Part shown: positions 11,912-16,538 of the stretch, piece after piece
Layout of the letters: the number at the start of each line of letters is the position of its first letter
How positions within the stretch are numbered: the first letter of the stretch is position 1
From: Methanoregula formicica SMSP
GTDB lineage: Archaea > Halobacteriota > Methanomicrobia > Methanomicrobiales > Methanospirillaceae
Assembly (NCBI RefSeq): GCF_000327485.1
Contig: NC_019943.1
Coordinates: 1,984,001 to 2,048,000 of the forward strand
Direction: 5' to 3'
DNA length: 64,000 bases
The notes under the pieces: model-generated
Database searches by the model: none
What the model was told of the DNA's origin: nothing
Seen by the model: the letters and a program-made list of their open reading frames with translations, nothing else
Position numbers and translations under genes: made by a program

Positions 11912-12517
11912 TCAGACCATGCCGGTGAAATTTTCAAGCATCTTCAGGCCCGCGGCCCCGCTCTTCTCGGGATGGAACTGGACGCCATAGACATTACCCC
12001 GGAAGACGGCCGATGCAAACGGGCAGATGTATTCAGTCGTTGTCAGGGTGTACTCCGGAGTTGTGTCCGCGTAATAGGAATGGACGAAATAGACGCTCTC
12101 ATCCGGCCGGACTCCGGCAAGGAGCGGGTTGTCCGGCTTCTCCAGTGTAAGCGAGTTCCAGCCCATGTGGGGCACCTTGAACCCGGCCATCTTCGGGAAC
12201 CGCTTTACGTTGCCCGGGATGAGCCCGAGCCCCTTGTGGAAACCATGCTCCTCACTGGTCTCAAGGAGCATCTGCATGCCAAGGCAGATCCCCAGCAGAG
12301 GGACTTCCCGGGAGGATTGGATCACGACCTCCTGCAGCGTGCCGAGTTTATCCATTGCCTCGCGGAAGGCCCCGACGCCCGGGAGGACGATGCCATCCGA
12401 AGCCGCGATCTCCTCCGGATCGCACGTAACAACAATAGCCGCCCCGGCCTTCTCCAGCCCCCGCATGACACTCCGGAGGTTTCCCACACCATAATCAATA
12501 ATGGCTATCTGCGTCAT
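11912..12517 (-). CDS. hisH: imidazole glycerol phosphate synthase, glutaminase subunit
   Basis: 201 residues, normal HisH length. The class I glutamine amidotransferase triad is visible: nucleophile Cys in PLLGICLGMQMLLE (about residue 79) and His/Glu in YGVQFHPEKS near the C-terminus. The N-terminal IAIIDYGVGNLRSV is a HisH hallmark. It supplies ammonia to HisF for IGP and AICAR formation in histidine synthesis. It overlaps the upstream PAPS-reductase-like gene by 23 bases; no other his gene is in the window. Confidence 0.97.
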   Translation of the reverse strand: MTQIAIIDYGVGNLRSVMRGLEKAGAAIVVTCDPEEIAASDGIVLPGVGAFREAMDKLGTLQEVVIQSSREVPLLGICLGMQMLLETSEEHGFHKGLGLIPGNVKRFPKMAGFKVPHMGWNSLTLEKPDNPLLAGVRPDESVYFVHSYYADTTPEYTLTTTEYICPFASAVFRGNVYGVQFHPEKSGAAGLKMLENFTGMV

Positions 12518-13913
12518 TGTCCTCCGCCCTGCCTTCTTTTATTCTCCATCGCCCGTCCGCAACCCATGCTGCCGGAAGGCCCTGTGCCTGCTGCCATTCG
12601 CTGAGCTTTTCCGTCCAGCCCCTCCAGAGATCCGGGTAATCCCCGGCGATCATATGCAGTAATGCCATATCGCTTGACGGACACATGAAGCAACCGATCC
12701 GGTCCAGCCGGTGTCCGTACAGGGCATTGTACGGCGCCTCCTCACGCCAGATGTAGAGCCAGACATGCATTGCGGTCCAGTTGTGGATCGGGGCTGCCGA
12801 GAGCTGGACTTTTACGTTCCGGTTCCGCCAGACCCGGTCGCTCTGCGCCCGTGTCGCAGACTCGTACCGCCGCTGGCCGATGAACGAGAGGCATTCGCCC
12901 CACCTCTCCCGGACAAGGTCCAGCACGGGTGTCAGCTTGCAGACCCTGCAGCACCAGCGGGCATTGACCGCCGGAGGGCCCTGTTTCGTAAAGGTCTCCC
13001 AGAATGTGTTGTTGCCATCAGTCCGTATCACTTCAAGGCCGTACTTCTCTGACACTTCGCGGACATTCTCGTAGGTTTCCGGGAACTCGAGGCCCGTGTC
13101 GGCAAAGAGCATCGGGATCTTGCCGATCGCCTTTGTCACCACGAGCAGGGTCGCGAGGCTGTCTTTCCCCCCGGAGTAGGAGACGTTCGCCACGAGGCCG
13201 GGGTTCCTCTCCGTCACGGACTTCACAAATGCGACTGCTTCTGCCTCTGCATCCGCAAGCACCCGGGCATTGGCCCGCACCGCATCGTCCCAGCCGGCCC
13301 TGCCGGGCACGATCTGCGACGCGATGTTCCGCCGTGTCCGGACAATGGAGCCTTTCTCCATGGCCCGGGCCGTTGCCGCGTCCACTTTTGCCCGCCCGAC
13401 CCCGATACAGGTACCATTGCAGGCCATGATGAAGACCTCATCCCCGGCCCGGACTGAGTCATCGATCGAGACCATCCCCGGCCGGAGCACGCTCATGCCC
13501 TGGTCGCGGATGAACGGCACGGCATCGTCGCTCACTACGACAACGCGTTTTTTTGGTGTGAAGAGATTGCAGGCCTCGGGCCGGGGCACCGGCTCCCATG
13601 TACGTTTATCCGGGAAGTACCGGATGATACCCGCAACACCGCCGCCAGCGATCACCTCTTCCATACGGTCCTGATCGGGAACCTTGTTTAAGAGCGCGAG
13701 GTGTCCTTCGGGAATGAGCGGGGCGCCGAAATGATCGGTATAGATCCTGTTGATAAGCACAACATCTTCCGGAAACGCCGGCCGAGCATCGCCCGGCGGG
13801 GTGACCGGAACCTCGCGGGTTGCGGCACCGCAGGCGCACTGTTTTGCCATGACCGGCGTGTGGCAGGTATCGCACCAGCGGAGCAGGATCCTGCCAAGAT
13901 AGGATGGACGCAT
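12495..13913 (-). CDS. archaeal phosphoadenosine phosphosulfate reductase family protein with zinc ribbon and PUA domain
   Basis: About 472 residues. The N-terminal zinc ribbon reads WCDTCHTPVMAKQCACG. A PUA-like RNA-binding region lies at about 115-200 (KKRVVVVSDDAVPFIRDQGM). The PP-loop ATPase/PAPS reductase domain follows with ANVSYSGGKDSLATLLV, and cysteines in ARWCCRVCKLTPV and RIGCFMCPSSDM. The PUA and ribbon suggest an RNA or tRNA substrate, for example thiolation, rather than assimilatory sulfate reduction; that is an inference. I start at ATG 13913 (MRPSYLGRILLRWCDTC) with GAGAG upstream, not the GTG at 13952. It overlaps hisH. Confidence 0.85.
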   Translation of the reverse strand: MRPSYLGRILLRWCDTCHTPVMAKQCACGAATREVPVTPPGDARPAFPEDVVLINRIYTDHFGAPLIPEGHLALLNKVPDQDRMEEVIAGGGVAGIIRYFPDKRTWEPVPRPEACNLFTPKKRVVVVSDDAVPFIRDQGMSVLRPGMVSIDDSVRAGDEVFIMACNGTCIGVGRAKVDAATARAMEKGSIVRTRRNIASQIVPGRAGWDDAVRANARVLADAEAEAVAFVKSVTERNPGLVANVSYSGGKDSLATLLVVTKAIGKIPMLFADTGLEFPETYENVREVSEKYGLEVIRTDGNNTFWETFTKQGPPAVNARWCCRVCKLTPVLDLVRERWGECLSFIGQRRYESATRAQSDRVWRNRNVKVQLSAAPIHNWTAMHVWLYIWREEAPYNALYGHRLDRIGCFMCPSSDMALLHMIAGDYPDLWRGWTEKLSEWQQAQGLPAAWVADGRWRIKEGRAEDNDADSHY

Positions 13914-14706: not shown

Positions 14707-15048
14707 TTATTCCGGTTCTTCTTCCCGGATCTCTTCTGGTTCAAGGAAACAGAGTACGCCAGCAATACCGAGAATGATTACTGCCGGCATGTATAGGAAG
14801 AGGAGGTTTAACGACCCGGCGATCGGGACGGAAAGGGTGATGAACACCGCGGCGAATACGAGCATCCACCCGGCAAACCGCGTCTCCTTGTTGGCGATGG
14901 CGGCACCCATCAGGCCGAGGCTGGAAAACAATGCGGTCTGGACTCCTGAGAGGGTCTGCTCGCTGCTCATCGCTGATAGGATCACGTACACGGCGATCAG
15001 GATGCCACAAATTCCCCCGATGAGACCCAGGATGAACTGTTTCTTCAT
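14707..15048 (-). CDS. small four-helix membrane protein (DUF4064-like)
   Basis: About 113 residues with four hydrophobic stretches (FILGLIGGICGILIAVYVIL, TALFSSLGLMGAAIA, FAGWMLVFAAVFITLSVPIA, LLFLYMPAVIILGIAGVLCF) and an acidic tail (EPEEIREEEPE). The overall look matches DUF4064-type proteins of unknown function. I chose ATG 15048 (MKKQFILG); the longer in-frame start at 15111 adds a hydrophilic leader atypical for such proteins. Converges with the MrpG-like gene. Confidence 0.65.
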   Translation of the reverse strand: MKKQFILGLIGGICGILIAVYVILSAMSSEQTLSGVQTALFSSLGLMGAAIANKETRFAGWMLVFAAVFITLSVPIAGSLNLLFLYMPAVIILGIAGVLCFLEPEEIREEEPE

Positions 15049-15427
15049 AGGAGTAGCCTTGCTCTTGAGCTGAATAAAGGTTGCCCCCAAGTGTATTTTT
15101 GCGGGCGCCATGCGGCTCCCGTTTCAAAAATGCGGCACCCCACACCCATAAAATGCGCGTTCCTCCCCGGGAAACCGGCCGTTTCCCGGCCCCCCGAATC
15201 GTTCATAATCCCGCGGATTGGAAAACGAAGCCCGATGCAAAGGTTTGCGCAATTTCTGATGTATTACACTGATATGCTCTTTTTTTGGAGAAATGAGCAA
15301 TTTTTTTTGGGTAAAAGTGCTGGTTTATGCTGTTTCTATGCCCCAAAAAGCCATTGCGACCAAAATATTTATTAATGGACAAAATAACAGAAAATATAAC
15401 CCTTTCCGGTAGGAGGTGGATACCAAC
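15049..15427. promoter_or_regulatory. intergenic region with promoter and Shine-Dalgarno for the Lys/Ala peptide gene
   Basis: Only the last 70 bases carry clear signals. TATTTATTAATGG (about 15366-15377) and AAAATATAACC (about 15391-15401) are TATA candidates. AGGAGGTG at 15411-15418 is an almost perfect Shine-Dalgarno, nine bases before ATG 15428. The rest is AT-rich around 15270-15320 and shows no gene I can support. Confidence 0.6.
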
Positions 15428-15511
15428 ATGGCAGCAGCAAAGAAGGCGGCAGCTAAGAAGACGCCGGCAAAGAAGGCCCCAGCAAAGAAGGCGGCAGCTA
15501 AGAAGAAGTAA
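15428..15511 (+). CDS. 27-residue lysine/alanine-rich micro-protein (histone H1-tail-like)
   Basis: ATG 15428 to TAA 15511. Composition is 12 Ala, 11 Lys, 2 Pro, 1 Thr and the start Met, built from AAAKK, TPAKK and APAKK units as in eukaryotic H1 tails and bacterial HC-type DNA-compacting proteins. Support for real translation is an AGGAGGTG Shine-Dalgarno nine bases upstream and TATA-like sequence before that. The DNA contains an exact 24-base internal duplication (from 15437 and 15482), so the gene may expand or contract by slippage. A nucleic-acid-binding polycation is likely. The long hydrophobic minus-strand frame here is its shadow. Confidence 0.7.
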   Translation: MAAAKKAAAKKTPAKKAPAKKAAAKKK

Positions 15512-15632
15512 TCTTGGTACACAACACTACACCTTTTTTCCGGTTTGTTTTTTCGCATTCTCCCTTCGCGAACCCACAAGCGTTGCGCACTGTCCGCCGT
15601 TGCGAAAACGCGATCCGGACAGCGTTTGTCTT

Positions 15633-16538
15633 TCAATCGTCCCGCTGGAGAAAGAACCGCGGATCGTTCCGGGCGAGATCGCAGGCAACGAGGGCGCTCA
15701 CTTCCTTGTCCTTGATCTCCAGCATGATGTCACGGTCACAGGGACGGGAGTGATCAAGAAACGCGGAAAAACCGGCCGGGTCGATATGGTCGGCATGGCT
15801 TCCCGGGCGTTTGCCCGGGTGCTGCGAACTGTAATCTATCATCGGGATCCCGTCAGACTTCTTCCAGGTCTCTCCCGTCAGGAGCAGGGCCTTTGCCATC
15901 TCTTCACCCGCGTTGTTGCAGGCATGATGGAAGACATCGAACAGGACTGGAACGCCGGTTTCTTCATGGACATTCAGGCAATCTGCCGCAGTGAACCGCA
16001 GGTCGTCATTCTCGATGACAAGACGCCGGCGGATTGCCGGGTCGAGTTGTTCATAGGTCCTGGCAAACCGGGCGAGGCTCGCCTCCTTGTCACCATACAC
16101 ACCTCCAATATGGAGCTGGATCTTCGCTGTCCTGTCAAGACCCATCGCGTCCAGCACGCCCGCGTGGTACGCAAGCTCGGCGATGCTTCGGCCCGCGACC
16201 TCCATATCCGGCGCATTCAGGACAATAAACTGGTCCGGGTGCATCGATATCCGGATTCCGGCCTTCCGGATGAATTCTCCGGTCTCTGCAAGCTCATTTT
16301 TGAAATGTTCCTGCCAGGGAAACGTGCAGACCGGGTGGGACGCGAAGGGCACCAGGTCGGACGTGATCCGGAAGAAAAGAATACCGTTTTGCCGGTTCCA
16401 AACAAGGATTTTTTTCAGGCATGCAAGGTTCCCCGCAACGGTTTCGACCAGCCGCTCCTCCGAGTACGAGGCAAGACGGAAGGTCTTGTTGGCGCTGCAC
16501 CCGATCCCCCGGTTGATACAGGGATACCCGATCCGCAT
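15633..16538 (-). CDS. uvsE: UV DNA damage endonuclease UvsE
   Basis: 301 residues, the usual UvsE/UvdE core length. TIM-barrel motifs include the start MRIGYPCINRGIGCSANKTF, RISMHPDQFIVLN with metal-binding His, LVIENDD, PVLFDVFHHACNN, and IDYSSQ. The family nicks DNA 5' to UV photoproducts in an alternative excision-repair pathway. It is convergent with the micro-protein gene and 48 bases downstream of TspO on the same strand. Confidence 0.95.
   Translation of the reverse strand: MRIGYPCINRGIGCSANKTFRLASYSEERLVETVAGNLACLKKILVWNRQNGILFFRITSDLVPFASHPVCTFPWQEHFKNELAETGEFIRKAGIRISMHPDQFIVLNAPDMEVAGRSIAELAYHAGVLDAMGLDRTAKIQLHIGGVYGDKEASLARFARTYEQLDPAIRRRLVIENDDLRFTAADCLNVHEETGVPVLFDVFHHACNNAGEEMAKALLLTGETWKKSDGIPMIDYSSQHPGKRPGSHADHIDPAGFSAFLDHSRPCDRDIMLEIKDKEVSALVACDLARNDPRFFLQRDD

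Follow-up and report, generated by a model that had tools for sequence, protein, structure and literature searches.

We have identified a conserved gene for a 27-residue lysine/alanine peptide in the complete archaeal genome of Methanoregula formicica SMSP (2,820,858 bases), within the 64-kb stretch of DNA analysed here (the window). Judging from its pattern of conservation, the frame at 15428-15511 (+) is a real protein-coding gene, which selection has maintained across two families of Methanomicrobiales. As to function, we lean, with about as much confidence as doubt, towards a free, disordered, lysine-only cationic peptide resembling a histone H1 tail, which would be made from its own short mRNA and would most likely bind nucleic acids.

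The gene and its expression signals

On re-reading, the small frame, its 11 Lys and 12 Ala among 27 residues, and the Shine-Dalgarno sequence exactly 9 nt 5' of the ATG were all as the initial annotation had given them (Table 1). On the other hand, the internal duplication, reported as an exact repeat of 24 bases, measured 27 nt (copies at 15435 and 15480); this is the longest exact internal repeat of the frame, and a periodicity of five residues (15 nt) underlies it. The TATA-like box noted upstream proved to be an archaeal BRE/TATA element, most columns of which are invariant within the genus.

Table 1. Features of the peptide gene and its surroundings (positions in the window)
Feature	Position	Strand	Remarks
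PUA and PAPS-reductase-domain gene, syntenic anchor	12495..13907	-	conserved near the peptide gene
Small membrane protein gene, divergent, conserved neighbour	14707..15048	-	weak DUF4064
Far-upstream conserved block	15244..15256	.	TTTGCGCAATTTC, palindromic core TTGCGCAA; kept with small changes in relatives having sequence there
Conserved upstream element	15333..15341	+	TTTCTATGC here, ATTCTATGC in most relatives
BRE/TATA promoter element	15358..15376	+	GACCAAAATATTTATTAAT; most columns invariant or nearly so
Predicted leader hairpin masking the Shine-Dalgarno sequence	15400..15419	+	CC.UUUCC-GGUA-GGAGG.GG; folding compared with shuffled leaders
Shine-Dalgarno sequence	15411..15418	+	AGGAGGTG; 9 nt before ATG 15428
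27-aa Lys/Ala peptide gene	15428..15511	+	MAAAKKAAAKKTPAKKAPAKKAAAKKK, net +11; genus-wide orthologues, in-frame pN/pS 0.19-0.22
T-tract, presumed transcription terminator	15534..15539	+	22 nt past the stop codon

In the aligned relatives, the BRE/TATA element GACCAAAATATTTATTAAT is followed by AACCCTTTCCGGTAGGAGGTGG and then by ATGG, and the GGAGGTG of the Shine-Dalgarno sequence is invariant in 22 aligned Methanoregula leaders. The position of the BRE/TATA element implies a transcription start near 15397-15400, and in the transcript inferred in this way the first ~20 nt rank with the best conserved DNA of the locus. The leader is unique in its own genome, the one other match having three mismatches and being at chance level. 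Most orthologues, taken from all three groups, have a T5 tract 12-31 nt after the stop codon (typically about 21). Directly downstream, a UvdE (UV damage endonuclease) gene occupies 15633-16538 on the minus strand, and no co-transcribed downstream gene is conserved among the compared orthologue loci. Considering the implied start, the T-tract, and a downstream gene that is unconserved and here on the opposite strand, the mRNA is most likely monocistronic, with a length of about 140 nt. UvdE also lies downstream in two other loci (L043 and L051), and not in most other relatives.

The leader hairpin is predicted to leave an unpaired fraction of 0.04 for the Shine-Dalgarno sequence, against 0.41 in shuffled leaders (P about 0.04). 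For the majority of leaders in Methanoregula and Methanoculleus, the predicted fraction is about 0.04-0.2, compared with about 0.35-0.5 after shuffling, with single-sequence P values mostly of 0.02-0.15, and the predicted hairpin covering the Methanoculleus Shine-Dalgarno sequence differs in sequence from that of Methanoregula. Because the Shine-Dalgarno sequence is fixed, covariation within the hairpin can hardly be expected. Since several variants weaken the stem and the hairpin is mostly absent in the related genus g20, we go no further than to hypothesise that it may exert translational control.

Farther upstream, the element at 15333-15341 is a possible regulator site, and its common form ATTCTATGC is not enriched within the 64-kb window. 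The block at 15244-15256 may belong to the divergent gene. In Methanoregula, the TTGCGCAA-like block and ATTCTATGC are conserved at a nearly fixed distance, and both are possible regulator sites of the peptide gene or of the divergent gene.

Conservation and selection in Methanomicrobiales

In a protein search of 39 Methanoregula genomes, many gave matches covering all or nearly all of the peptide, with E-values kept weak by its shortness and simplicity; the gene is much better recognised by its promoter and leader than by the peptide sequence. When 84,980 prokaryote species genomes were scanned for exact matches to a degenerate leader pattern, 25 stretches were found, all from records of Methanoregula, Methanoregulaceae or Methanomicrobiales, and every one is followed by a Lys/Ala frame (24 complete, 1 ended by a contig edge). 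R1, a model built from the promoter and leader sequences, matched in 33 of the 39 genomes. One of these matches (G016, E 6.5e-4) marks a gene that has decayed to a remnant close to the anchor, and one more genome, G008, carries the frame at a contig end, so that the same small frame with its Shine-Dalgarno sequence, which the initial annotation had suggested looking for in relatives, is carried by 33/39 genomes. The gene is absent at the locus in G001 (99% complete) and was not found in G002, G017, G024 and G035, which are 71-82% complete; in all of these but G017 the anchor gene is close to a contig end. The remnant of gene and leader in G016 (L099, G016:C1:1852638-1852702) belongs to a Methanoregula of 1.95 Mb, and neither this degenerate match nor the weak leader-model matches L100, L105, L109 and L110 were accepted as members.

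Among 28 distinct Methanoregula coding sequences, pN was 0.116 and pS 0.524 (ratio 0.22), and in equal-length pairs pN/pS was 0.19 in frame versus 1.65 and 1.61 for the two shifted frames. The differences are mostly at third positions and all length changes are whole codons. Taken together, these patterns argue that the peptide itself is conserved, beyond the DNA alone. For the Methanoculleus type described below the contrast is weaker, with 0.36-0.37 in frame and 1.48 and 0.53 out of frame. The earlier suspicion of an overlooked small gene is thus strongly supported by the recurring leader and frame and by frame-specific purifying selection. That the frame arose by chance in low-complexity DNA and is not translated might be suspected from the repeat and from the weak E-values of the protein search alone; this idea deserves hardly any credence, being refuted by the frame-specific selection and by the conservation of leader and frame in dozens of genomes.

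The gene extends beyond the genus. In g20, a sister genus of the same family, R1 finds it in 7 of 8 genomes and synteny in the eighth, with peptides of the K/A type (e.g., MAAAKKPAAKKAAKKPAAKKAKKK). R1 also weakly finds a second peptide type in family f5, and a model built from this type (R2) finds it in 33 of the 35 genomes of genus g5, which we take to be Methanoculleus, and also in g32, g33 and g34. These Methanoculleus-type peptides (e.g., MAKDRKPQDKKQDKKTEKVQDKAKKN) have 19-31 residues, combine Lys with Gln, Asp and Glu, and typically follow a leader of the form ATCCCACCTCGGGAGGGAGGTGTGTCA..ATGGCA, unlike that of Methanoregula. Both types are found in the vicinity of the same PUA-PAPS-reductase gene. 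They are divergent from it and lie about 0.6-1.6 kb away in most genomes, and about 9-30 kb away in g32, g33 and g34 where measurable. Because the K/A type of the sister genus and the K/Q/D/E type share this place, we consider on grounds of synteny that the peptide family covers two families of the order. The anchor gene family itself is present in 228/232 genomes of Methanomicrobiales; beside it, no lysine-rich small frame with a Shine-Dalgarno sequence was found in representatives of most other genera, and in G054 and G127 the locus lacks the gene.

Other occurrences were noted in family f4 (genus g4). In two genomes (G043 and G038; L207 and L208), a similar, possibly related 31-residue lysine-rich peptide, MADKKKPAAKKPEEVKPETAKSAPAKGGKRK, with a Shine-Dalgarno sequence and a TATA-like box, is encoded behind a purM-like gene. 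A third genome (L225, G135:C5:8000-27900) holds a Methanoculleus-like block of ~11 kb with PAPS-reductase and peptide genes in addition to a second, native PAPS gene elsewhere, which is probably a horizontal transfer or an assembly mix. A viral origin was rejected, as three exact pattern matches in viral contigs belong to an unrelated 129-aa protein.

Peptide composition, expanded copies and resemblance to H1-like proteins

The Methanoregula peptides have a Lys/Ala/Pro composition, with no Arg, Cys or aromatic residues, and carry net charges of +9 to +13. In nearly all Methanoculleus-type peptides the net charge is +5 to +7, and it holds though length and acidic residues vary. The standard deviation of net charge is 0.63 in the Methanoculleus type and 0.91 in Methanoregula, against about 3.5 and 2.7 for random residue draws; because such draws ignore shared ancestry, a range narrower than random is suggestive only.

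Length variants had been expected from the internal duplication, and they do occur in relatives, at 19-31 residues and as versions of 112 and 120 residues. The 120-residue version (G034) lies next to the PAPS gene, in the orthologous position, and the 112-residue version (G015) is a second copy; both have the same leader and retain the composition. With the HC2 model PF07382 (cut-off 40 bits), the 112-residue version (L112) scores 59 bits and passes, the 120-residue version fails at 32.9 bits, and the 27-residue peptide, at 13.3 bits, falls outside HC2. The match of the 112-residue version is mostly driven by composition, but it shows that this gene is able to expand into something that databases would label H1-like. 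K/A-rich tails like the peptide are also seen on unrelated proteins of the genus, which from sequence reading are ribosomal protein L32e, PurM (AIR synthase), carboxymuconolactone-decarboxylase-like proteins and a branched-chain aminotransferase-like protein (G000:C1:2573941-2573985, L002; G000:C1:48573-48638, L027; L014, L019, L033 and L009-L012).

The likeness to a free histone H1 tail drawn in the initial annotation is apt, considering the Ala/Pro/Lys composition without Arg in the short Methanoregula peptides and the 112-residue relative above the HC2 cut-off. With the eukaryotic H1 C-terminal tail the peptide shares AKK/PAKK units and presumed disorder, but it is a free archaeal peptide without a winged-helix domain, and the likeness need not be homology. 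Bacterial H1-like nucleoproteins (chlamydial HC2, AlgP, Burkholderia H1-like proteins and mycobacterial Rv3852) share the K/A/P repeats, the lack of a globular domain and the length variation by repeat number. However, the typical peptide here is archaeal, has 26-28 residues and its own promoter and leader, and scores 16.7 bits with the Rv3852 model (cut-off 100); the resemblance need not reflect common descent. By description, it also resembles a 74-residue lysine-rich nucleoid protein candidate from proteomics of Methanomassiliicoccales (WP_019177984.1; PMC7613761), which is likewise small, basic and archaeal but longer.

Possible function and meaning

The genome encodes two proteins with a histone fold and one Alba. 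Across the order, histones are present in 222/232 genomes and Alba in 217/232, whereas MC1 is found in 0/232. A Pfam scan of the 27-residue peptide gave no histone-fold, Alba or MC1 match, only the sub-threshold HC2 one. A replacement for missing histones is thus ruled out, and the peptide adds to the usual chromatin proteins rather than substituting for them. It is not essential to methanogen chromatin, because the gene is not found in most other genera, is missing in G001, decayed in G016 and off the locus in G054 and G127. In the literature searched, the gene was not reported; the paper on the small proteome of M. mazei says nothing, in its main text, of these genera or of lysine.

In our proposal, the short mRNA would yield an intrinsically disordered peptide whose charge lets it bind DNA, rRNA or mRNA in the way of an H1 C-terminal tail without the globular domain. 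It would contribute to the neutralisation or condensation of DNA or RNA next to archaeal histones and Alba, and the leader hairpin hiding the ribosome site may tune its output. The role put forward in the initial annotation, compaction of DNA or RNA or else charge neutralisation, is thus a plausible candidate. A nucleic-acid ligand is the best reading because the peptide is presumably disordered, lysine-only and narrow in charge range; which of DNA, rRNA and mRNA is the target is indistinguishable from sequence. Against a DNA condenser stands the Methanoculleus form, which is less charged (about +6) and has many Gln, Asp and Glu residues.

The main rival, which we hold to be unlikely yet worth keeping in view, is that the peptide serves the ribosome as a small accessory protein comparable to eL41, its lysines touching rRNA. 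The peptide is tiny and basic and has strong promoter and Shine-Dalgarno signals, ribosomal proteins typically have lysine-rich tails (L32e here has a long K/A/P/E tail), and the only PDB sequence matches, which are weak, are to the eL14 tail. However, no ribosomal protein family model, eL41 included, matches it, Arg and aromatic residues for specific contacts are missing, the sequence drifts freely between the K/A and K/Q/D/E types, and most of the order appears to do without the gene. Being a pure polycation, the peptide could instead bind another polyanion such as polyphosphate or the cell envelope, or act against membranes or competitors, and there is a precedent in the H1-like protein AlgP of Pseudomonas, which is reported to influence polyphosphate granules (PMC9239181). 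We find such a role doubtful, since there is no evident signal sequence and no conserved export or immunity gene nearby, and the +6 K/D/E/Q form is unlike an antimicrobial peptide.

An RNA, either small regulatory or dual-function, could be the main product with the peptide secondary, and the conserved transcript start and the Shine-Dalgarno sequence inside a predicted hairpin would suit it. This seems quite improbable, as protein-level selection is clear and the leader changes between genera while the lysine-rich peptide persists. Also, the whole transcript is not folded beyond shuffles (z -0.11) and has no Rfam match over the gathering score, which rules out a structured RNA over its full length. 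A leader peptide or attenuator would likewise place a short Lys/Ala-rich frame after a strong promoter. It is scarcely credible here and was rejected on synteny, because the downstream genes vary by genome and are often on the opposite strand and no co-transcribed gene is conserved; in addition, a T-tract follows the stop codon.

Returning to the nucleic-acid-binding peptide, a more specific version, which we regard as rather improbable, is that the family provides histone-like tails in trans. Its members, as free polylysine peptides, would then act on DNA packed by tail-less archaeal histones (or on ribosomes), and their synthesis would be balanced by the hairpin masking the Shine-Dalgarno sequence, which the peptide itself may bind. 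A precedent is the archaeal RNA-binding protein L7Ae, which governs translation via its own 5' leader through a k-turn (PMC6298567), whereas for the leader here only a short hairpin over the Shine-Dalgarno sequence is predicted.

The orthologous K/A and K/E/Q types represent a natural test of selection on charge alone. Common gene callers such as Prodigal have a 90-nt minimum, and this gene, at 81-87 nt, falls under it and was possibly missed for that reason. Annotations of Methanoregula and Methanoculleus, which produce methane in wetlands and digesters, may therefore lack a basic peptide that is conserved and probably well expressed. Ribosome binding, if that is its activity, would make it a new ribosomal factor specific to this lineage. 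DNA binding would instead mean that archaeal chromatin does possess a tail component, supplied apart from the histone.
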